A stretch of DNA of 64,000 bases from Arenimonas terrae (lineage in GTDB: Bacteria; Pseudomonadota; Gammaproteobacteria; Xanthomonadales; Xanthomonadaceae): NCBI RefSeq assembly GCF_006265115.1, contig NZ_SMDR01000001.1, forward strand, positions 682,001 through 746,000, given 5' to 3'. Each line of letters begins with the position of its first letter. The first letter of the stretch is position 1. Positions 14,076-25,141 of this stretch are shown here, one piece after another. Position numbers and translations under genes: made by a program. A model generated the notes under the pieces. The model saw only the letters and a program-made list of their open reading frames with translations, was not told where the DNA came from and did no database searches.

Positions 14076-14086
14076 GCCGGCGGGGC

Positions 14087-14377
14087 TCAGGCCGCAATCC
14101 GCTGGATCCGCCCCAGCTTGCCGCCCAACGTTCGGCGCGCCTCTTCAAGATCGTACGTTGCCTGGAGCTCCAGCCAGAACCGCTCGCTGGTGCCCAGCGC
14201 TGCCGCCAGCCGGAGCGCCGTATCCGCGCTCACGCCACGCTTGCCGAGAACGATTTCGTTGATGCGCCGCGGCGGAACGCCCGCGGCCCGCGCCACGGCG
14301 TTCTGGCTGATGCCCAGGGGCGACAGGAACTCCTGGAGCAGGATCTCGCCAGGGTGGATGTTGGGTAGACGATTCAT
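14087..14377 (-). CDS. higA: HigA antitoxin (Xre family)
   Basis: This 96-residue protein matches the HigA/VapI-type antitoxin: MNRLPNIHPGEILLQEFL, then an HTH (GISQNAVARAAGVPPRRINEIVLGKRGVSADTALRLAAALG) and the tail SERFWLELQATYDLEEARR. It follows higB by 12 bases, the toxin-first order typical of HigBA. It neutralises HigB and represses the promoter, probably through the two inverted repeats upstream of higB. A TTG two codons upstream is possible but the ATG matches family members. Confidence 0.93.
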   Translation of the reverse strand: MNRLPNIHPGEILLQEFLSPLGISQNAVARAAGVPPRRINEIVLGKRGVSADTALRLAAALGTSERFWLELQATYDLEEARRTLGGKLGRIQRIAA

Positions 14378-14389
14378 GGGCAACCCCGT

Positions 14390-14671
14390 TCAGTGGTAGT
14401 CGACGATGGCAACCTCGAACGCTTCGCCGTCACGCCAGCGGAAACAGATCCGCCACTGATCGTTGATGCGGATACTGAACTGGCCGCGACGCCCTCCCTT
14501 GAGCGCCTCGAGGCGATTGGCCGGCGGCACCCGCAGATCATCCAGCGTCGCCGCCGCAGCCAGCATCCTCAGCTTCCGCCGGGCCACCGGCTGGATGGCC
14601 TGGGGCAACCGCCGCGAGCCCGAACCATCCCAAACCCGCTCTGTTTCCTGATCCGCGAAGCTGCCGATCAT
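14390..14671 (-). CDS. higB: HigB toxin (RelE superfamily mRNA interferase)
   Basis: The 93-residue product matches HigB/plasmid-maintenance killer proteins: MIGSFADQETERVWDG, KLRMLAAAATLDDLRVPPANRLEALKG, GQFSIRINDQWRICFRW and FEVAIVDYH. The RINDQWRICF strand and C-terminal VDYH are the family's catalytic face. It cleaves mRNA at the ribosome when free of HigA. The pair opens the accessory stretch and is transcribed leftwards from its own promoter region. Confidence 0.93.
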   Translation of the reverse strand: MIGSFADQETERVWDGSGSRRLPQAIQPVARRKLRMLAAAATLDDLRVPPANRLEALKGGRRGQFSIRINDQWRICFRWRDGEAFEVAIVDYH

Positions 14672-14680
14672 GGTCGAATG

Positions 14681-14712
14681 TAACGCTCCCCGTTATATAA
14701 CGCAACCCGTTA
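14681..14712. promoter_or_regulatory. Double HigA operator (TAACG-N5-CGTTA twice)
   Basis: Two identical-format palindromes, TAACG-N5-CGTTA, lie at 14681-14695 and 14698-14712, two bases apart, directly before higB. Their junction also forms the 12-bp palindrome CGTTATATAACG. A TATAAC reading leftwards overlaps the outer site and could be the -10 of higBA. This is the expected place for autorepression by HigA. Confidence 0.65.
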
Positions 14713-14865
14713 TAGCTGCGCCGGTCTGCTAACCGCGCAAGTCCGCGCACCTTGCCGTTGCTCCAGGCCCGCGGGAATCAGTGAATTGCGCGCAGTGGGG
14801 TCGGCAGTCCCAGGGCTATTCCTCGCCTACCCCAGTTGACGTAACCTGGTCAGAGGGAGAATCCG

Positions 14866-15804
14866 ATGGCCTTTTGGTGGGTCAACCACAAGCAGACACG
14901 CGACCACGAAGTGCGTGGTGGCTACCTGTGGTCGCCCTATCGCAACGCCAACGGCGCCTTCAATCAGACTTACGAGAACTTGCGCCATGCCCGAGTGGGT
15001 GATGTCGTCTTCTCATTCGCCAATGCCCAAATCGGAGCGGTTGGCCGCGTGACCGCGGCGGCTACCCCCAGCCCCAAACCGATCGAGTTCGGCAATGTCG
15101 GTGACAACTGGGCCAATGAAGGCTGGCTTGTCGAGGTCGACTTCGTGCCCGTTCCGCGGGCCCTTCGACCGCAAGCCCACGCCCAGGCCATCGCGCCCCT
15201 GCTACCTGCACGCCACTCTCCGATACAGGCCAACGGCCATGGCAATCAAGGCTGTTATCTGGCCGGGATCTCAGACGCCCTGGGCGCGGTCCTGGTGGAA
15301 CTGATGGACGCTGGGACCCTGCTTCCAGCGACGAACCGGATCAGCGAGCCGGAACTCGGTCCAGCGCTCCTCGAGGACCTGCACCGGATCGAAGGCGACC
15401 TTTCGATTCCAGATACCCAGAAGCCGCAACTCGCCAAGGCCCGTATCGGTCAGGGCCTGTTCCGGAAGCGCGTCATCCTGCTTGACCCAACGTGCCGCGT
15501 AACCGGCGTGACCGAAACCCGCGTGTTGATCGCCAGCCATATCAAGCCGTGGAAAGACTCGAGCAATGCCGAGCGAATCAATGGCCACAACGGCATCATG
15601 CTCTCGCCACACGTAGACGCCCTGTTCGACGACCACCTGATTACCTTCGAGGACGACGGACGAATTCATGTGCACGAGTCCCTGCCGCGGGACGTCCTCG
15701 ATCGCTGGGGAATCGACCCAAGTCGTCGGGTGGAACGATTCCGGCCAGAACAGGCCATTTTCCTTGGCCACCATCGAAACGCATTCGGAGCGAAGATCGG
15801 ATAG
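14866..15804 (+). CDS. HNH endonuclease with EVE-like N-terminal domain
   Basis: This 312-residue protein has two parts. Residues about 1-115 (MAFWWVNHKQTRDHEVRGGYLWSP, VGDVVFSFANAQIGAVGRV) resemble EVE/PUA-like modified-base-binding domains. Residues about 185-290 form an HNH nuclease (FRKRVILLDPTCRVTGVTETRVLIASHIKPW, then HNGIMLSPHVDALFD). SHIKPW and LSPHVDALFD are the hallmark HNH blocks. The domain pair suggests a type IV, modification-dependent restriction enzyme that cuts phage DNA bearing altered bases. It sits between higBA and an Mrr-like gene. AGGGAG precedes the ATG. Confidence 0.8.
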   Translation: MAFWWVNHKQTRDHEVRGGYLWSPYRNANGAFNQTYENLRHARVGDVVFSFANAQIGAVGRVTAAATPSPKPIEFGNVGDNWANEGWLVEVDFVPVPRALRPQAHAQAIAPLLPARHSPIQANGHGNQGCYLAGISDALGAVLVELMDAGTLLPATNRISEPELGPALLEDLHRIEGDLSIPDTQKPQLAKARIGQGLFRKRVILLDPTCRVTGVTETRVLIASHIKPWKDSSNAERINGHNGIMLSPHVDALFDDHLITFEDDGRIHVHESLPRDVLDRWGIDPSRRVERFRPEQAIFLGHHRNAFGAKIG

Positions 15805-15903
15805 GCATGCCGTCTTCCGTAACGATGACTGACCCATCCCCTACCCGGTGACCTGTTCAGCCCCTTCGCGGCGGTCACCTCTTAATCCTCTCAAGAGACC
15901 CCG

Positions 15904-16707
15904 ATGGCCGCACGACGCCGAACCTCAGGACTGGAAGCCCTTGCCGCAATGCCGTGGCCCGTCGGGATCGGCTTGGGCATCGCCGGCTTTCTGCTGGTCA
16001 GGTATGGCGCCCCGTGGTACTTCAGCCAGGACAGCTCGGCCATTTCGAAAGCCTTCGCCCAGGGCCTGGCCAACGGCCCCGTGCAAGTGTTCTCCTGGGT
16101 CGTCCTGTTGATCTGCTGGCTTGGCGCTGGTCTTTCTTACATCAAACAGCGCCAGCGTGCCCGCCTGTTTGATGCCCAATCGAAAACCCTTGAGCTGTCG
16201 GCCCTGAGCTGGCGCCAGTTCGAAAGCCTCGTGGCCGAATGGTTCCATCGACAGGGATATCAGGTCGTGGAAACTGGCGGTGGCGGACCGGACGGTGGTA
16301 TCGACCTGATCCTCAGGAAGGGAGGCCGGAAAGAACTGGTGCAATGCAAGCACTGGAAGCGTCGCCAGGTGAGCGTCACGACGGTCCGTGAGATGTGGGG
16401 GCTGCTGCAACACCACCAGGCCGACGGCGTGTGGATTGTATGTACTGGTGAATTCACCGCCGATGCCGCGACGTTTGCTGCCGGCAAGCCCGTCCACCTG
16501 GTCACAGGCGCCCAGTTGGGAAGCCTCATGCAAGAAATCAGTGCAGGAGCGCAACCATCGCCCTTCTCGGAAGAAGTGCCGGCACCCAGCCTCACCTGCC
16601 CACGATGTGGTCGCGGAATGGTTGAGCGACAGAACCGTCGAACCGGCGACCGATTCTTCGGCTGCGAGACATACCCTGCCTGCAAAGGCACCTCGGCGAA
16701 GCCGTAG
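15904..16707 (+). CDS. Membrane-anchored Mrr-like restriction endonuclease with zinc finger
   Basis: The 267-residue product begins with two hydrophobic segments (about residues 17-36 and 60-80), then an Mrr-type PD-(D/E)xK nuclease domain (about 95-215). The active site is E108, D134 in PDGGIDL and Q147-C-K149, where the lysine is catalytic. The C-terminus (about 228-265, CPRCG to CETYPACKG) is a topoisomerase-IA-type zinc finger. Mrr proteins cleave methylated or foreign DNA. The anchor would place cutting at the inner membrane, where phage DNA enters. It is 100 bases after the HNH gene. Confidence 0.85.
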   Translation: MAARRRTSGLEALAAMPWPVGIGLGIAGFLLVRYGAPWYFSQDSSAISKAFAQGLANGPVQVFSWVVLLICWLGAGLSYIKQRQRARLFDAQSKTLELSALSWRQFESLVAEWFHRQGYQVVETGGGGPDGGIDLILRKGGRKELVQCKHWKRRQVSVTTVREMWGLLQHHQADGVWIVCTGEFTADAATFAAGKPVHLVTGAQLGSLMQEISAGAQPSPFSEEVPAPSLTCPRCGRGMVERQNRRTGDRFFGCETYPACKGTSAKP

Positions 16708-16752
16708 CGCGTCGGCCACCTTCGGCCGTGCCGCGTTCGTGAGATCACGCCG

Positions 16753-17658
16753 TCAGCCTTCGCCCATGAAGTCGCGATAGGCGGCCAGCACCTCATTGGG
16801 CGCTTCCACCTGCGGGTAATGCCCCACCCCCGCCAGTTCATACACCGGCGCTTGCGGCAGCAGCTCGCGCCACCGGGCGACAATGCCGCGGCCGGAGATG
16901 GGGTCTTCCAGGCCGTTGATCAGGGCGAGGGGCACGGTGGCGTGCTGCAGGGCCCCGACCCAGCGTTCGCGGTGGCGGTGGCGTTCGGCGATGTAGCGCA
17001 GCAGCTTGGGCATCACGGCCTTGCCGCCGTCGCGGGTGAGCTGCTGCCAAGCTTCGGCCAGTTCGCCGTCGGGCCAGGGCCGGGCGCAGATGCGCTGCAG
17101 GCTGGCGGTGAAGGTGCGCTCACTAATGAAGCGAACCAGCAGCGGCCCCAGCGGCCCGGCCAGCAGGCGCTGGATGCGCAGCGGGCGCGTGGCCTCGGGG
17201 AACAGGCCGCCGTTGAGGAAGGCCACCGAGGTGATGCGGAAGCCCAGCCGGCCCTCGCGCTGCCGCGCCAGCAGTTCCTGCGCCACGGTATTGCCGTAGT
17301 CGTGGGCCAGCACCGCCACCTTGCGCACGCCGGTGGCTTCGGCCAGCGCCACCCACTGGTCGGCCGACGCGGCGATGGAATAGACGAACTTGCGCGGCTT
17401 GGCCGAGGCGCCGAAGCCCAGCATGTCCAGCGCGAACACTTCGTGCTGTGCCGCCAGCTCGGACCACAGCCCGCGCCAGTCGCGGCTGGAGGTCGGGAAG
17501 CCGTGGATCAGCCACAGCGCCGGCCCCTGCCCGTCCCGGCGCGCCTGCAGTCGATGGCCCTGGAACGTGAGCGTGAACTTGGCAGCCTGTTCGTATCGGG
17601 TCACGCGAACCTCCGACTGCAGGCCCTGCATCCATGCGGTGGCCGCCTGGTGCGCCAT
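16753..17658 (-). CDS. Alpha/beta hydrolase (haloalkane dehalogenase/epoxide hydrolase-like)
   Basis: This 301-residue alpha/beta hydrolase has the oxyanion segment WLIHGFPTSSRDW, a nucleophile elbow AHDYGN with aspartate (as in dehalogenases and epoxide hydrolases), a cap region, and the acid and base in NGLEDPISG and GVGHYPQVEAP. With an aspartate nucleophile it is not a simple esterase. The frame is open further upstream; the ATG at 17658 is chosen because upstream residues lack family character. It diverges from the SRAP gene. The substrate is unknown. Confidence 0.82.
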   Translation of the reverse strand: MAHQAATAWMQGLQSEVRVTRYEQAAKFTLTFQGHRLQARRDGQGPALWLIHGFPTSSRDWRGLWSELAAQHEVFALDMLGFGASAKPRKFVYSIAASADQWVALAEATGVRKVAVLAHDYGNTVAQELLARQREGRLGFRITSVAFLNGGLFPEATRPLRIQRLLAGPLGPLLVRFISERTFTASLQRICARPWPDGELAEAWQQLTRDGGKAVMPKLLRYIAERHRHRERWVGALQHATVPLALINGLEDPISGRGIVARWRELLPQAPVYELAGVGHYPQVEAPNEVLAAYRDFMGEG

Positions 17659-17763
17659 CGGGCGCGGGCGCCGGCTGCTGATCATCCTTGAACTCGAAAT
17701 TGCGCCATGTCGGCCGGCATTATGCCAGCGCCGCGAAATGCCGGCCCGCGTTATGCTTCGCAC

Positions 17764-18699
17764 ATGTGCTACTCCGCCCAGATCGAAGCCAGCTACAAGG
17801 CCTTCGTGCGCAAGTACGGGGCCGTGCTGGACATTCACGAATACGTGCGCATCGCCAACCGCGACCTGAAAAAGGCCCGCGAGGCCTACAAGGTGCCGAA
17901 GGCCGTGGCGCTGTCGTTTGTGGACGGCAGCTCGCCGGCGGAACAGGAAATCGCCGCCGCCTTCCTGCGCGGCCTGGCCGACCAGGTGAAGGACGAACAG
18001 GCCGAAATCGCCGCCCTGCGCGAACGGCTGCAGGCCGCCGAAGCCAGACTAGCCAGCCCGCGGCCCACGAAAAAGGCCGCGGACGACGCCCGCATCGCCC
18101 AGCGCAAGATCGAAGCCGCCGAACGCCGCCTCGCCGGCCTGCAACGCCTGGACCTGCAGCCCGCGGACTCGCGCCTGTGGCCCGGCCAGTTCGTGCCGGT
18201 GATGATCGTGCAGGACGGCAAGCGCCTGGTCACGCCCATGCGCTACCGCTGCCGGCCCGCGTACGTGGACGAAGCGTTCGAGAAGGCGCGCCCCGGCCTG
18301 TACAACGCCCGCCTCGATTCCCTGGAAACTTTCTGGAAGCCGCTGTTCGGCCACCGGCACGCCGTGGTGCTGGTGAATTCCTTCTACGAACGCGTGGACC
18401 GCGACGGCAAGTCGACCGAAGTCGAGTTCACCCCCGACGACGGCGAACCGATGCTGGTGGCCTGCCTGTGGTCGGACTGGGGCGACGGCGACGAGCGCCT
18501 GCATTCCTTCGCCATCATCACCGACGAGCCGCCACCGGAAGTCAGGGCCGCCGGGCATGACCGGATGATCGTGCGGATACAGCCGGAGGACCTGGAGGCC
18601 TGGCTCAATCCGGATCCGTCGAACCTGAAGGCGCTTTACGACCTCTTCGACCGGCGGCCGCGGCCCTACTACTCGCACCGGGTGGCCGAAGAGGCTTGA
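17764..18699 (+). CDS. SRAP domain protein (YedK/HMCES-like) with coiled-coil insertion
   Basis: The 311-residue protein begins MCYS, exposing Cys2, the residue that crosslinks to abasic sites in SRAP/YedK/HMCES proteins. Other family residues follow: NARLDSL (about 181), VNSFYER with the active-site glutamate (about 208) and GHDRMIV with the histidine (about 264). Residues about 60-125 form an unusual helical, charged insert (ADQVKDEQAEIAALRERLQAAEARLA) not found in short YedK. It should shield abasic sites in single-stranded DNA. It is transcribed alone. Confidence 0.88.
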   Translation: MCYSAQIEASYKAFVRKYGAVLDIHEYVRIANRDLKKAREAYKVPKAVALSFVDGSSPAEQEIAAAFLRGLADQVKDEQAEIAALRERLQAAEARLASPRPTKKAADDARIAQRKIEAAERRLAGLQRLDLQPADSRLWPGQFVPVMIVQDGKRLVTPMRYRCRPAYVDEAFEKARPGLYNARLDSLETFWKPLFGHRHAVVLVNSFYERVDRDGKSTEVEFTPDDGEPMLVACLWSDWGDGDERLHSFAIITDEPPPEVRAAGHDRMIVRIQPEDLEAWLNPDPSNLKALYDLFDRRPRPYYSHRVAEEA

Positions 18700-18735
18700 C
18701 CGGGGTTGCGCCGGGTCAGAGGCCGAAGCCTGGCC

Positions 18736-19215
18736 CTACTTCCCGCCGCGCACCGCCGCTTCGATGGCCGCCACGTCGATCTTGCGCATCGGAAACATCG
18801 CCTCGAACGCGCGCTTGGCTACGTCGCCGCCGGCAGCCATGGCTTCCGTCAGCACCCGCGGCGTGATCTGCCAGCTGATGCCCCACTTGTCCTTGCACCA
18901 CCCGCACTGGCTTTCCTTGCCGCCGTTTTCAACGATGGCGTTCCAGTAGCGGTCCGTCTCTTCCTGGTCTTCGGTCGAAATCTGGAAGGAGAAGGCTTCG
19001 CTGTGCTTGAACGCCGGGCCACCGTTGAGGCCGATGCACGGGATGCCCGCGACGACGAATTCCACGGTCAAGGCGTCGCCGGCTTTGCCATCGGGGTAGT
19101 CGGAAGGTGCGCGGTGGACTGCGCCGAGGTGGCTCTGCGGGAAAAGGCGCGTGTAGAAGCGCGCGGCTTCTTCGGCGTCGTGTTCGAACCATAGGCAGAC
19201 AACGCTTTTGTTCAT
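18736..19215 (-). CDS. PhnB-like VOC-fold protein (single domain)
   Basis: This 159-residue protein is a single PhnB/3-demethylubiquinone-methyltransferase-like domain: MNKSVVCLWFEHDAEEAARFYTRLFP, FVVAGIPCIGLNGGPAFKHSEAFSFQI, CGWCKDKWGISWQITP and the tail MFPMRKIDVAAIEAAVRGGK. It resembles the second half of the tandem protein at 3643-4560, and both end with a DVAAIEAAxRGG-type tail. The ATG at 19215 follows GAGAATG-type sequence. Its reaction is unknown. Confidence 0.85.
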   Translation of the reverse strand: MNKSVVCLWFEHDAEEAARFYTRLFPQSHLGAVHRAPSDYPDGKAGDALTVEFVVAGIPCIGLNGGPAFKHSEAFSFQISTEDQEETDRYWNAIVENGGKESQCGWCKDKWGISWQITPRVLTEAMAAGGDVAKRAFEAMFPMRKIDVAAIEAAVRGGK

Positions 19216-19548
19216 GGGAACATTCTCTCCACGGCGATGGCCTTCAACAGAACTCGGACTAGAAGTAGGGAGCCCCGGGATCAAGCTATACCAAAGTCCG
19301 CAACCAGGGCCCGGCAACTACGATTGACTGCATTCTGAAGACCGCGGACTTGGTGGATCAACGAGAGCATCCCGACACTTTTGCAAATAGCCGCACACCT
19401 CAGACTGGCGCACCAAAGATCCGCTCAACCACAAACCACCGACCTAGGACGCCGGGAAATAGGATGGACTAGATACCAGAACGCGCCGCAACTGGCGCAA
19501 TGAAGAATCCCAAGCAACCCCAACGACCTCGCCTACAACAAGCCAAGA
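19216..19548. other. Gene-free 333-bp boundary of the accessory module
   Basis: No open frame of credible composition, RNA gene or repeat was recognised. Base composition falls from the GC-rich flank towards the AT-richer DUF262 gene, so this is probably the left boundary of the acquired segment. I found no clear direct-repeat attachment site matching the other side. Confidence 0.5.
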
Positions 19549-20580
19549 CTATTTTCCGAGATAGCGAAGCAGAATCTCTGTTCTCAGCCGAATACTCCCA
19601 GAGTCATTTGTGTTTCTCGCCATCATGTCGAAGTTCGACAGATCATGATCACCAGGCAGGCCTTCGGCAACCTTCTCCTTATTTTTTTGCCTAAGCTCGT
19701 TAAACCTTACGAACTTTTCTCGCAGCCCGGGCACCGGTCCAGTCTGACGGCAAACCTGATAGTAGACAGTTAACGGGCCTTGTGAGGACAACAAGACATC
19801 TCGAGGAACGAACACCTTCTCCATCCAACCCAAAACTGCATTGACTCGAGATGCGGCCTTTTCAAACCCAGGGGACTCCGCTTTGACGCCCTCATCAACC
19901 AATCGATCAATTTGAGTCTTCTTCGTGTCAACTATTTTCCCCCTGAACTCAAGCAGAAGAAGCTTTGCTGCAACCGCCTTGTCTTCACCGCGCTTGGTTG
20001 AGAAACGCACCCTAGTCCTGAAGAAGTCGTGCTTTGCTATGGCGGAGATTTGCTTCGGCACCACACCCTTCATTGCATTCCTGAATTCAGGCGCAGTAAG
20101 TGGCTTGCTCGAGTTTAGCCGGATGAAAAGGTCGTTGATCTTCGCCTCATCATCCGTAATGACGCTCATGACATCCAAGTTGAACTGATCAAACCGGTCA
20201 GCGACTTCAGAGTGAGTTTCCTTCAGATCCTTGTAGAAAAGCCCCCCCAGGCTAAGAAGTGGATTGGCCTCAAACACAAAGTCTTGTCTAAGCGGAAACT
20301 TATTCCCAACAAAATCAATAATCGCTTCCAGGCGCTGCTTTCCATCAATAACTGCGTAGCGCCGATTGATAACGTTTAGCGATGTGTTCCCAAACGAGAA
20401 ATCTGCCAGATAAATCTTTGGGATGTCGTAGTCGTTGATTATCGAATCAACCAGATACGCCTTCGCGCTTTCGGACCAAACATTACCTTTCCGCTGGTAC
20501 GGCGGAGAAAAATCTATCTCGTTCCGGCGGGAGTTCCACCACGAAACCGTTCGCCGATCATGCGCCTGCACTTTGAACAT
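19549..20580 (-). CDS. DUF262 domain protein (GmrSD-N-like)
   Basis: The 343-residue product contains an N-terminal DUF262 domain (about residues 10-190): PYQRKGNVW (28-36), then the nucleotide-interacting DGKQRLEAI (79-87; family consensus DGQQR) and FIRLNSSKPLTAPEFRNA. DUF262 belongs to the ParB/sulfiredoxin superfamily and occurs in GmrSD-type restriction and other defence proteins. No DUF1524 HNH nuclease follows in the same chain, so this is a half-architecture. The ATG shares one base with the stop of the FRG gene (TGATG) and has GGAG seven bases upstream. Its codon use is far AT-richer than that of its neighbours. Confidence 0.87.
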   Translation of the reverse strand: MFKVQAHDRRTVSWWNSRRNEIDFSPPYQRKGNVWSESAKAYLVDSIINDYDIPKIYLADFSFGNTSLNVINRRYAVIDGKQRLEAIIDFVGNKFPLRQDFVFEANPLLSLGGLFYKDLKETHSEVADRFDQFNLDVMSVITDDEAKINDLFIRLNSSKPLTAPEFRNAMKGVVPKQISAIAKHDFFRTRVRFSTKRGEDKAVAAKLLLLEFRGKIVDTKKTQIDRLVDEGVKAESPGFEKAASRVNAVLGWMEKVFVPRDVLLSSQGPLTVYYQVCRQTGPVPGLREKFVRFNELRQKNKEKVAEGLPGDHDLSNFDMMARNTNDSGSIRLRTEILLRYLGK

Positions 20581-21383
20581 CACCTGGCTCCAAATCCTGC
20601 GGATCGCTTCAGTTCACGCGCCAGACCGTCCAAGTCAGGAAATACGGTCGAATCCAGCACCCCCGCTCCAAGCAGCTCACGGAACACAGACTCTTGATGA
20701 ACTCCATTAATTTCTATTTTTTGAAGAGTTCCATCTTCGAAGGCTCCAGCAGTGAAAACATCCTCCATTGGGTCCATAGATCTCCCAAAAAGAGTAAAAA
20801 CACCGCGCTGGGAAACAATTCTTGGGCTGTTATGCACACCATAAACCGCAACCGGGCGATCCATAAGCGTTGCTCCGTCGCCAACCTGAACGTATCCATT
20901 AGTTAGCCGGCTATCCCCCACGGAAAACGGCTCTCCCGAATAATTGATGTGTGCATGAACCGTCCTATTCCACAGGACCGGCTTTAGCCTCCATACACAC
21001 GACGATCCAGTTGTCGTTCCGGTCGCATCCCGGCGGAGATCACATAGAGCGAAGAACAGTGCTACGAATGCATTCTCCGACCAGTCAAGCAGCCGAGTAG
21101 GCATTCCATGGTGCTGCATTAGGAACATCAGCTCCAACCTGTCAACCGGAAGCGCTCTACTGACCATGGGCTGCGCTCTTTCGCGAAAGCGAGTGATTAA
21201 AGATGCCTCCAACCCAAGTAATTGCGCGGACACGCCAATAGTCGGATGACGATAGAGCGATGGAACAAGCCTGTGCGTCGAGGACGAAACACCCCTGAAC
21301 CACTTTAGCTCATCTGGCTCTGCTGCAATTGCGCGGGCATACCCTGAAAGGGTTCGGATTTCTATAGTCTCCAGTGTAGGCAT
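20580..21383 (-). CDS. FRG domain protein
   Basis: This 267-residue protein carries an FRG domain: WFRG (28-31) with the following THRLVPSLYR, then LMQHHGMPTRLLDWSENAFVALFFA (89-112), the most conserved block. FRG domains occur in defence and toxin contexts and resemble ADP-ribosyl-type folds in some proposals, but no activity is firmly known. It is coupled to the DUF262 gene by a one-base overlap, so both are made together. No clear promoter lies in the 89 bases between it and icmF. Composition is strikingly AT-rich for this genome. Confidence 0.85.
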   Translation of the reverse strand: MPTLETIEIRTLSGYARAIAAEPDELKWFRGVSSSTHRLVPSLYRHPTIGVSAQLLGLEASLITRFRERAQPMVSRALPVDRLELMFLMQHHGMPTRLLDWSENAFVALFFALCDLRRDATGTTTGSSCVWRLKPVLWNRTVHAHINYSGEPFSVGDSRLTNGYVQVGDGATLMDRPVAVYGVHNSPRIVSQRGVFTLFGRSMDPMEDVFTAGAFEDGTLQKIEINGVHQESVFRELLGAGVLDSTVFPDLDGLARELKRSAGFGAR

Positions 21384-21472
21384 CTATTTTTTCGCTCTTG
21401 TCAGAGAACAAGCTTGAGCCATGAGAAATCGAAGCTTCACGCAACAGCCGAGATACTTCTTTTGATTTGAAG

Positions 21473-24400
21473 TTACATGTTCCGGCGATACTCCCCACCC
21501 ACCTCATAAAGCGCATGACTGATCTGCCCCAGTGAATGCGTCTTCACCGCCTCCATCAACGCCGCGAAGATGTTCTTCCGGTCACGGGCGGTGGACTGCA
21601 GGGGCTTGAGGTGGTCTGAGGCCAAGGGGTTTCGGGCCAGCTGGTAGGTCCGGACGTTCGCGATCTGGGCGCCCTTCTCGCCTTCGGTGCTGCGGATCAG
21701 TTCGATGGTGGTGGCCACCTCGCCCGCGTGGTCCTTGGGCAGGAAGGTGTTCACGCCCACCAGGGGCAGGCTGCCGTCGTGTTTCTTGTGTTCGTAGTAC
21801 AGGCTTTCTTCCTGGATCTTGCCGCGCTGGTACATGGTGTCCATGGCGCCCAGCACGCCGCCGCGTTCGCTCAGGGCTTCGAACTCGCGGTACACGGCCT
21901 CTTCCACCAGGTCGGTCAGGTGGTCGACGGCGAAGCTGCCCTGCCAGGGGTTCTCGTTGAAGTTGAGGCCCAGTTCCTTGTTGATGATCATCTGGATGGC
22001 CACGGCGCGGCGCACGCTTTCTTCGGTGGGCGTGGTGATGGCCTCGTCGTAGGCGTTGGTGTGCAGGCTGTTGCAGTTGTCGAACAGCGCGTACAGGGCC
22101 TGCAGCGTGGTGCGGATGTCGTTGAACTGGATCTCCTGCGCGTGCAGTGAGCGGCCGCTGGTTTGGATGTGGTACTTCAGCATCTGGCTGCGTTCGTTGG
22201 CGCCGTAGCGTTCGCGCATGGCGCGGGCCCAGATGCGGCGGGCCACGCGGCCGATCACCGTGTACTCCGGGTCCATGCCGTTGCTGAAGAAGAAGCTCAG
22301 GTTGGGCGCGAAGTCATCAATGTGCATGCCGCGCGCCAGGTAGTACTCGACGATCGTAAATCCGTTACTCAGGGTGAAGGCCAGCTGGCTGATCGGGTTC
22401 GCCCCCGCTTCGGCGATGTGGTAGCCGCTGATGGACACCGAGTAGAAGTTGCGGACCTTGCGATCCACGAAGAACTGCTGGATGTCGCCCATCATGCGCA
22501 GGGCGAATTCGGTGCTGAAGATGCAGGTGTTCTGGGCCTGGTCTTCCTTCAGGATGTCGGCCTGCACGGTGCCGCGCACGGTGCTGAGGGTTTTCGCCTT
22601 GATCTGCTCGTAGACCTCGGGCTCGACCAGCTGGTCGCCGGTGATTCCCAGCAGGCCGAGGCCCAGTCCGTCGTTCGTGGGCGGCAGCTCGCCGTGGTAT
22701 TCGGGGCGCTTCTTGCCCTCGAAGAAGGCCTCGATCTTCTTGTGCGCTTCGTCCCAGCGCTTCTGGTCCTCGCGCAGGTACTTCTCGACCTGCTGATCGA
22801 TGGCGGTGTTCATGAACATCGCCAGGATCATCGGCGCCGGGCCGTTGATGGTCATGGACACGCTGGTGGACGGCGCGCACAGGTCGAAGCCGGAATACAG
22901 CTTCTTCATGTCGTCCAGCGTGGCGATGGACACGCCGGAGTTGCCGATCTTGCCGTAGATGTCCGGGCGCTCGGCCGGGTCCTCGCCGTACAGGGTGACG
23001 CTGTCGAAGGCGGTGGACAGGCGCGCGGCCGGCTGGCCGACGCTGAGGTAGTGGAAACGCCGGTTGGTGCGTTCCGGCGTGCCCTCGCCCGCGAACATGC
23101 GGATCGGGTCTTCGCCGCTGCGGCGGTACGGGTACACGCCGCCGGTGTACGGGTAGGCGCCCGGCAGGTTTTCCTTGCTCAGGAAGGTCAGCAGCTCGCC
23201 CCAGCTCTTGTAGGTGGGCGCGGCGATCTTCGGGATCTTCTGGTGGCTGAGCGATTCGCGGTAGTTCTCGACGCGGATCGTCTTGTCGCGCACCTTGTAT
23301 TCGCCCACCTCGTCGGTGATGGACTTCAGGCGCTCGGGCCATTCGCGCAGCAGGGCAATGGATTCGGCGCTGAGCGCCTTCACCGCGTCGTTGTAACGCT
23401 GGCGCAGGGTGACCAGGCTGCGGTCGACGCTGGCGGCGCGGCGTTCCTCCAGCGGGCCGCGGGCGTCGGCGCCCTGGGCCTGCTGCCACTTGAACACCAC
23501 CTTGCGGCGCTCCTGGCCGGTGCGGCGCTCGCCGCAGGCGGGCCATTCGTTCGGGTTGGCGCCGGGCGTGGCCGGGGCGCGCTGCACCAGCAGGTGGTGC
23601 GGGTCGTAGAGGTCGAGCTGGCGCGGCAGGTCGGCGTCGTCCAGGTCGTGCAGGCTCTGCCAGTAGCTCTGGGCGCGGTCGGCGGCTTCGGCCTGGCGTT
23701 CGATGCTGGCGTTGATCTGGCGGCCCTGTTCGGCGATCTCGGCCAGGTAGCGGGTGCGGGCGCCGGGGATCAGCACGGTGGCGCGCGGTTCCTTCAGGCC
23801 GGTGTCGACGTTCGGCGAAAAATCGCAGTGCGGGCTCGACGGCGCCAGCTTGGCCTTCACCAGGCGGCACAGGTTGCTGAACATCCAGCTCACGCCGGGG
23901 TCATTGAACTGGCTGGCGATGGTCGGATAGACCGGCACCTCCTCGTCCTTCAGGGCGAAGGCGACGCGGTTGCGCTTCCACTGCTTGCGCACGTCCCTCA
24001 ACGCATCCTCGGCGCCGCGCTTGTCGAACTTGTTCAGCACGACGAGCTCGGCGAAGTCGAGCATGTCGATCTTCTCGAGCTGGCTGGGGGCGCCGAAATC
24101 GGACGTCATCACGTAGACCGGGAAATCCACCAGGTCCACGATCTCGGAATCGGACTGGCCGATGCCGGCGGTTTCCACCATCACCAGGTCGTAGCCCTGG
24201 GCGCGCAGGAAGGCCACGCAGTCCTTCAGCACCGCATTGATGGCGGCGTGCTGGCGGCGGGTGGCCATCGACCGCATGAAGACGCGCGGGCTGCGCAGCG
24301 AGTTCATGCGGATGCGGTCGCCCAGCAGGGCGCCGCCGGTTCGGCGGCGGGTCGGGTCGACGGAAATCACGGCGATGCGCATTTCCGGGAAATGCTGCAG

Positions 24401-25141
24401 GAAGCGGTTCATCAGCTCGTCGGTGACGCTGGACTTGCCGGCGCCGCCGGTGCCGGTGAGGCCGATCACCGGGGTCTTGCCGCCGGCCAGCTGCCATTCC
24501 TTGCGCAGGGTGGCCAGCTGGGCCTCGTCGAGTTCGCCTTCTTCGATGGCGGTCAGCATCTTGCCGATGCTGATCTCGTCGTTGATGTCGGGTGCGAAGC
24601 CGGTGTCGGCCTCGGCTTTGCCCGCGCCTTTCTTCTTGCCGCCGGGCGTGGAGATAAATGCACTCTGACCCCGGATTTTGCGGGCGGCTTCGGTGCGGCG
24701 GACCAGGTCCTCGATCATCGCCACCAGGCCCATCTGCATGCCGTCGTTGGGGTGGTAGATGCGCTCGACGCCGTAGTCCTGCAGCTCCTTGATCTCCTCG
24801 GGCGTGATGGTGCCGCCGCCGCCGCCGAACACGCGGATGTGCGACGCGCCGCGCTCGCGCAGCATGTCCACCATGTACTTGAAGTATTCGGTGTGGCCGC
24901 CCTGGTAGCTCGACAGCGCGATGCCGTCGGCGTCTTCCTGCAGCGCGGCGCGCACCACGTCCTCGACGCTGCGGTTGTGGCCCAGGTGCACCACCTCCAC
25001 GCCTTGCGCCTGGATCAGGCGGCGCATGATGTTGATGGCGGCGTCGTGGCCGTCGAACAGGCTGGCCGCGGTGACGAAGCGCAGCGGGCTGCGTTCGGCC
25101 TGGGTGTCGGCGGTCGGGACCTGGGAGGCGGGGGTGCTCAT
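21473..25141 (-). CDS. icmF: Fused isobutyryl-CoA mutase IcmF
   Basis: This 1222-residue protein fuses three modules. A B12-binding domain (about 20-150) has [10 protein letters not shown] and [11 protein letters not shown] MeaI-type G-protein chaperone (about 190-520) has the P-loop [12 protein letters not shown] at about 226-237 and NKFDKRG. A mutase barrel (about 560-1222) has [10 protein letters not shown] and [13 protein letters not shown]. IcmF interconverts isobutyryl-CoA and n-butyryl-CoA using adenosylcobalamin, and related enzymes act on pivalyl- or isovaleryl-CoA. The linker at about 155-164 is encoded by a repeat-element end. The AT-rich FRG/DUF262 module follows it. Confidence 0.95.
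24652..24679 (-). repeat. Repeat-element end embedded in the icmF linker
   Basis: A 26-base stretch (24652-24677) is identical to the right terminal repeat of the 116-bp element at 30773-30888. It is read in frame in icmF, giving the residues [10 protein letters not shown] at about 155-164 between the B12 domain and the G-protein domain. Only one end is present, with no second inverted copy nearby. Confidence 0.85.

Follow-up and report, generated by a model that had tools for sequence, protein, structure and literature searches.

The FRG-DUF262 gene pair of the window

The 64,000-nucleotide stretch of Arenimonas terrae DNA studied here (the window; RefSeq assembly GCF_006265115.1, contig NZ_SMDR01000001.1, positions 682,001 to 746,000) carries a two-gene operon whose products contain an FRG and a DUF262 domain, respectively. 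An initial annotation, made from the nucleotide letters, had put the two genes forward as a candidate undescribed defence system. Both leftward open reading frames (ORFs) were recovered where that annotation placed them, and the Pfam search upheld its domain calls, with FRG (PF08867) in the 267-aa protein at E 2.7e-20 and GmrSD_N/DUF262 (PF03235) in the 343-aa protein at E 1.3e-17. No domains other than these two were matched within the pair at E 0.001, and DUF1524, annotated as missing from the DUF262 protein, had no Pfam match there.

20580..21383, minus strand: FRG gene, first gene of the pair, 267 aa, a proposed ADP-ribosyltransferase (ART)-type effector using nicotinamide adenine dinucleotide (NAD) (Pfam, PADLOC, AlphaFold2 model)
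19549..20580, minus strand: DUF262 (GmrS-like) gene, a proposed nucleoside triphosphate (NTP)-switch sensor (Pfam, PADLOC, model match to BrxU)

The FRG stop codon TGA and the DUF262 start codon ATG at 20580 share one base (TGATG), as originally described; starting DUF262 from the GTG at 20583 yields 344 rather than 343 aa and an overlap of four bases. The reported AT-richness of the pair was likewise recovered, with G+C contents (GC) of 0.522 for FRG and 0.489 for DUF262 against 0.687 for the whole window, and third-codon-position GC (GC3) of 0.49 and 0.57, respectively, against 0.93 in the gene just upstream of the pair.

Alignments of 77 paired FRG proteins and 75 DUF262 proteins contain the following conserved motifs:

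21291..21302, minus strand: WFRG motif of FRG (W28, R30 and G31, each in 77/77)
21081..21116, minus strand: QHHGMPTRLLDW motif of FRG (Q90-W101; Q90, H91, T96, R97, L98, D100 and W101 in 77/77)
20796..20810, minus strand: QRGVF motif of FRG (Q192-F196; Q192, G194 and F196 in 77/77)
20491..20496, minus strand: QR motif of DUF262 (Q29 and R30 in 75/75)
20332..20349, minus strand: IDGKQR motif of DUF262 (I78-R83), equivalent of GmrS DGQQR (D79, G80, Q82 and R83 in 75/75)
20113..20127, minus strand: FxxxN motif of DUF262 (F152-N156; F152 in 74/75, N156 in 75/75)

R30, T96, R97 and Q192, invariant in all 77 aligned FRG proteins, may include NAD-binding catalytic residues of the ART kind. Both strings singled out at the start, PYQRKGNVW and DGKQR, are present in the DUF262 translation, and QR is listed as a GmrS motif in PMC4619093. 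The GmrS motif set is kept in 74-75 of the 75 DUF262 proteins, but with lysine (44 proteins) or arginine (31 proteins) at position 81 in place of the first glutamine of DGQQR.

The FRG protein matches the PADLOC candidate PDC-S15 at E 1.9e-48. Its AlphaFold2 model is predicted with a mean local confidence (pLDDT) of 94.9 and has ART-like proteins among its structural neighbours, the similarity being weak; no significant match was found by Foldseek against PDB, nor any by a sequence search of solved structures. For the DUF262 protein, the best PADLOC matches are NsnA (3.1e-26) and PD-T4-2_A (6.8e-11), and the model matches BrxU across residues 5-343, while the sequence search of solved structures returned two rows, both at chance level.

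Conservation and co-inheritance of the pair

Species genomes of GTDB were scanned with a seven-row DUF262 alignment, which gave 318 relatives in 427 candidate stretches; the best 80 were kept. This ranking used DUF262 alone, yet all seven seed rows came from paired loci. Of the best 80, 76 are immediately preceded on the same strand by an FRG gene, counting copies truncated at a contig start or broken into two frames (L045, L048, L085, L091, L103 and L121). In the remaining four, L104 has an apparently transposase-like ORF, judged by its sequence, in the place of FRG; L102 has an internal deletion that joins pieces of FRG and DUF262 in a single frame; and FRG is missing from L074 and L096, whose DUF262 belongs to the paired clade. 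The two FRG-less genes (L074:6600-7652 and L096:3050-4114) stand beside Rrf2/cysteine-synthase-like and ordinary genes. Phyla could be assigned for 76 of the 80 loci and number 15; as L074 and L096, both unpaired, are the sole representatives of two of these, the pair itself spans 13 named phyla. Some organisms occur in two collections (L002/L108, L014/L092/L126 and L015/L099).

Pairing depends on the strength of the match. Nearly all DUF262 relatives above ~290 bits are paired, compared with none of the 47 weaker relatives examined below ~140 bits (L003-L012, L141-L152 and L230-L254), the loci from genome searches spanning ~1.5 kb per side. Among 398 genomes of the window's own phylum, 58 have some DUF262 match; five of these, including the window's genome, score 408-470 bits and are all paired, and the next-best match (137 bits) has no FRG. 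Viral contigs contain 29 DUF262 relatives, of which 17 exceed 300 bits (16 with FRG upstream, one beginning at a contig edge) and 12 fall below 90 bits, none with FRG. The reverse search gave the same picture. Of the best 80 among 230 viral FRG loci, L131 was already known as paired; among the other 79, the 17 above 225 bits comprise 15 with DUF262 downstream and two that stop at a contig edge, and none of the 62 below 200 bits has DUF262 downstream. With a further 25 weaker FRG loci, none with DUF262 within ~1.5 kb, the total for weaker FRG is 0 of 87. The co-occurrence beyond chance for which the initial annotation had suggested a search was therefore found in both directions, and chance adjacency was rejected.

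The gene order is fixed, with FRG first and DUF262 second. Of 84 full-length pairs, 80 have an intergenic gap between -60 and +20, and 29 have one of -4. The two genes are inherited together: distances on the FRG and DUF262 trees correlate with r = 0.907 (79 of the 84 pairs, three odd ORFs and two near-copies having been dropped) against a maximum of 0.129 over 2000 shuffles, a correlation to which the shared descent of the species may contribute. On the DUF262 tree all paired genes share a single branch, of length 1.4 and support 100, within which L074 and L096 are nested, as expected from later loss of FRG, and on the FRG tree paired copies cluster apart from solo ones. A single clade for paired FRG is not shown, the paired label needing three changes on each tree. 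We regard it as almost certain that FRG and DUF262 form a real two-gene module.

Restriction and defence genes around the pair

For the neighbour test, 36 loci were named and two (L116 and L066) left out; the four nearest ORFs at the remaining 34 loci (136 in total, taken by a longest-ORF rule under which false ORFs are possible) were compared with 133 ORFs of control regions on the same contigs. At 1e-10, 174 PADLOC families were matched beside the pair versus two in the controls, a ratio that overstates the case because many redundant models match one protein. Among named families, MTase_II and REase_II each matched 4 of the 136 neighbour ORFs versus three model-member matches in the 133 controls. 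Pfam families of the neighbours include Eco29kI (5), 5-methylcytosine (m5C) methylase (4), integrase (2) and ABC-3C CTD10 (2) as well as ordinary genes, gyrase and aldehyde dehydrogenase among them; the 25 control families listed of 103 include neither Eco29kI nor the m5C methylase.

Owing to the redundancy of the PADLOC counts, a genome-wide positional test was added. In 35 whole genomes with the pair, the seven Eco29kI genes are all found no more than 10.3 kb away from it (expected 0.03), six within 4.4 kb and one at 10.25 kb, and the 10.5-kb limit takes in 5 of 54 m5C methylase genes, where 0.21 would be expected (Poisson p 3e-6). The choice of both families followed inspection of the neighbours, and that limit just includes the Eco29kI gene at 10.25 kb. 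Within ~5 kb of 97 loci, the methylase cluster was found at 15, Vsr at 8 and Eco29kI at 7.

A restriction cassette of m5C methylase, Vsr and Eco29kI genes adjoins the pair in L081, L097, L101, L105, L112 and L119. The pair is also carried by a Hymenobacter plasmid, and in L131, L133 and L139 it adjoins phage CI-repressor and CII-type genes; these three pairs are presumably cargo of P2-like prophages.

Within the window, the pair adjoins an icmF-like gene (icmF below) at one end of a variable segment:

21473..25141, minus strand: fused B12-binding/MeaB/methylmalonyl-CoA-mutase gene (icmF-like; Pfam), its 3' end being the exchange site
14077..21472, no strand: variable segment, absent from relative G021 (comparison with G021 and L185)

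Homology with relatives ends at most ~20 bp from the icmF stop. The block that ends at window position 14076 is separated from icmF by ~300 bp in G021, which defines 14077-21472 as variable. No other genome of the genus contains this DUF262, the single relative, in G018, being weak and unpaired. When the region downstream of icmF was compared in 14 relatives (L178-L191), seven had same-strand low-GC genes (GC 0.35-0.56) directly after it. PADLOC was run on these seven sites and matched at six, whose contents are PD-Lambda-4_A; Old/GajA; PDC-S33, with a RelA_SpoT domain; PDC-M31A and B; a type II methylase with DpdB; and PDC-M71A and B. The 3' side of icmF is thus an exchange site for defence operons, at which the window carries FRG-DUF262. 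The proximity to defence genes that the initial annotation had proposed to look for was consequently found for Eco29kI, for the m5C methylase and at this site. The seventh site, in L180, has two low-GC ORFs (178 and 526 aa) with no match, which could be another novel system. No tRNA gene that could serve as an integration site was found at 10-30 kb of the window, and no convincing repeats flank the pair.

The variable segment contains further genes:

14087..14671, minus strand: HigB-like toxin and HTH antitoxin genes (Pfam HigB-like 3.7e-20, HTH_3 6.2e-11)
14866..15804, plus strand: HNH_2 endonuclease-like gene (Pfam 1.1e-11; PADLOC HNH 5e-22)
15904..16707, plus strand: Mrr-type nuclease gene (Pfam Mrr_cat 2.6e-30)

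These HNH, Mrr and HigBA genes, cited at the outset as nearby support for a defence role, are indeed present at 14.1-16.7 kb, but other genes (an alpha/beta-hydrolase ORF, SRAP and a PhnB-like gene) intervene before the pair. A partnership of FRG or DUF262 with the HNH or Mrr gene found no support, as they lie at least 2.8 kb apart and are not fixed neighbours in relatives. In L189, a HigBA and HNH block of ~73% DNA identity also occurs downstream of icmF.

Comparison with known systems and proposed mechanism

The fixed pairing in many phyla, the adjoining restriction and defence genes and the exchange site within the genus strongly support the original proposal of a candidate defence system, and we consider a role of FRG-DUF262 in defence highly probable; the likelihoods given to this and other readings are judgements and were not computed. 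Each domain is already tied to defence, FRG as PDC-S15 and DUF262 as a known defence domain. PDC-S15, the S of which we read as marking a single-protein candidate, is filed as one protein and is also matched by FRG of L044, L106 and L117; FRG here is half of a fixed pair. No paper on FRG and DUF262 jointly was found in the literature searched, which covered neither preprints nor most subscription papers, so that an earlier mention is possible. The first treatment of FRG is reportedly a 2020 paper. PMC9503650 places FRG in the ART superfamily as a potential antiviral ART effector, and with its PDC-S15 entry this weakens the initial label "undescribed", which held for the pair within the literature searched.

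The pair resembles GmrSD and BrxU in its DUF262 (GmrS) domain and motif set but lacks a DUF1524 HNH nuclease, whether fused or in a neighbouring gene, which rules out an ordinary GmrSD; the K/R substitution in DGQQR and the ART-like FRG partner set it further apart from GmrSD. Six of 36 genomes contain DUF1524 (PF07510), with the closest match weak (4.4e-5) and ~13.5 kb from the pair. NsnA presumably belongs to Menshen, and the word was found in no paper of the literature searched. Menshen and PD-T4-2 share with the pair a DUF262 without DUF1524 (PMC10952713) and supply its best PADLOC matches, but its partner in the window is FRG. The OLD-type nuclease gene of Menshen is absent beside the window's pair, which is flanked by the icmF-like and PhnB-like genes, and at E 0.001 the pair showed no match to the HEPN domain of PD-T4-2. 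NAD-degrading RES/ART toxins such as MbcT are probably related to FRG through the ART superfamily (PMC9503650) and show weak structural similarity to it; the partner of FRG, however, is GmrS-like and not an Xre-type antitoxin.

The assignment of sensor and effector had been left open initially. The predicted folds favour FRG as an ART-type effector and DUF262 as a GmrS-like switch, and we think it probable that a NAD-using FRG effector is governed by a DUF262 NTP-switch sensor. DUF262 would then be a GmrS minus its nuclease, in which a helical domain follows a nucleotide-binding domain of the ParB/sulfiredoxin fold that bears the GmrS motifs. It would recognise an invader cue, most simply a feature of foreign DNA, and change shape on NTP binding or hydrolysis; FRG, presumably in physical contact with it, would act as an ART-fold enzyme that uses NAD+ and would either destroy NAD+ or ADP-ribosylate an essential target, leaving an infected cell that no longer supports the phage. 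A mobile two-gene abortive-type anti-phage system is accordingly the reading we favour, with some reserve. That the cue is modified or foreign DNA and the outcome NAD+ loss is more tentative. On that version, which we advance with less than even confidence, a type-IV-restriction-type sensor would halt the cell with no DNA cutting, its GmrS-type switch reading foreign or modified DNA and activating an ADP-ribosyltransferase.

Three other explanations were weighed. FRG could be a NAD-using toxin held by DUF262, so that the pair stabilises mobile DNA or induces dormancy and phage protection is a by-product; such a toxin-antitoxin role appears unlikely, since DUF262 keeps invariant GmrS nucleotide-site motifs that a plain antitoxin would not need, and L074 and L096 retain DUF262 without FRG, though a lone antitoxin would fit that observation too. 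The roles could also be reversed, DUF262 being a DNA-acting effector and FRG making or sensing a controlling ADP-ribose signal. Nucleases exist among ParB/sulfiredoxin-fold proteins, GmrS nuclease activity is left open in PMC4619093 and FRG is counted among signal-generating enzymes in PMC9503650, but the proposed GmrSD nuclease is the HNH domain rather than DUF262, and DUF1524 is absent here, which makes the reversal improbable. Least plausible, and in our view very improbable, is that the pair is an accessory of the adjoining m5C methylase, Vsr and Eco29kI cassettes and no system of its own: the proximity of all seven Eco29kI genes in the 35 genomes and the counts of the methylase (15/97), Vsr (8/97) and Eco29kI (7/97) within ~5 kb fit this idea, but 29 of the 35 pair-carrying genomes have no Eco29kI at all and none stands beside the window's pair.

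If FRG is the effector and DUF262 the sensor, an ART-type, probably NAD-using enzyme would join the listed partners of DUF262 sensors (HNH, OLD and HEPN), and the role of at least one FRG clade would be explained. On the more tentative version with DNA as the cue and NAD+ loss as the outcome, DUF262 would be a general sensor chassis taking HNH, OLD, HEPN or ART effectors in turn, and the copies beside Eco29kI cassettes would form a second line when restriction fails. Two questions become testable, namely the cue of a DUF262 without a DUF1524 nuclease and NAD+ consumption by FRG enzymes; because the pair is small and has relatives in genera that are culturable and non-pathogenic, the tests are simple.

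On another contig of the source genome (G000:C2:340242-340688), a separate DUF1524 match lies inside a 948-aa open frame that is perhaps a full GmrSD enzyme. Many solo FRG without DUF262 occur in viral contigs (L255-L333, under 200 bits) and likewise in P2-like and other enterobacterial phages, and these are probably further FRG systems.
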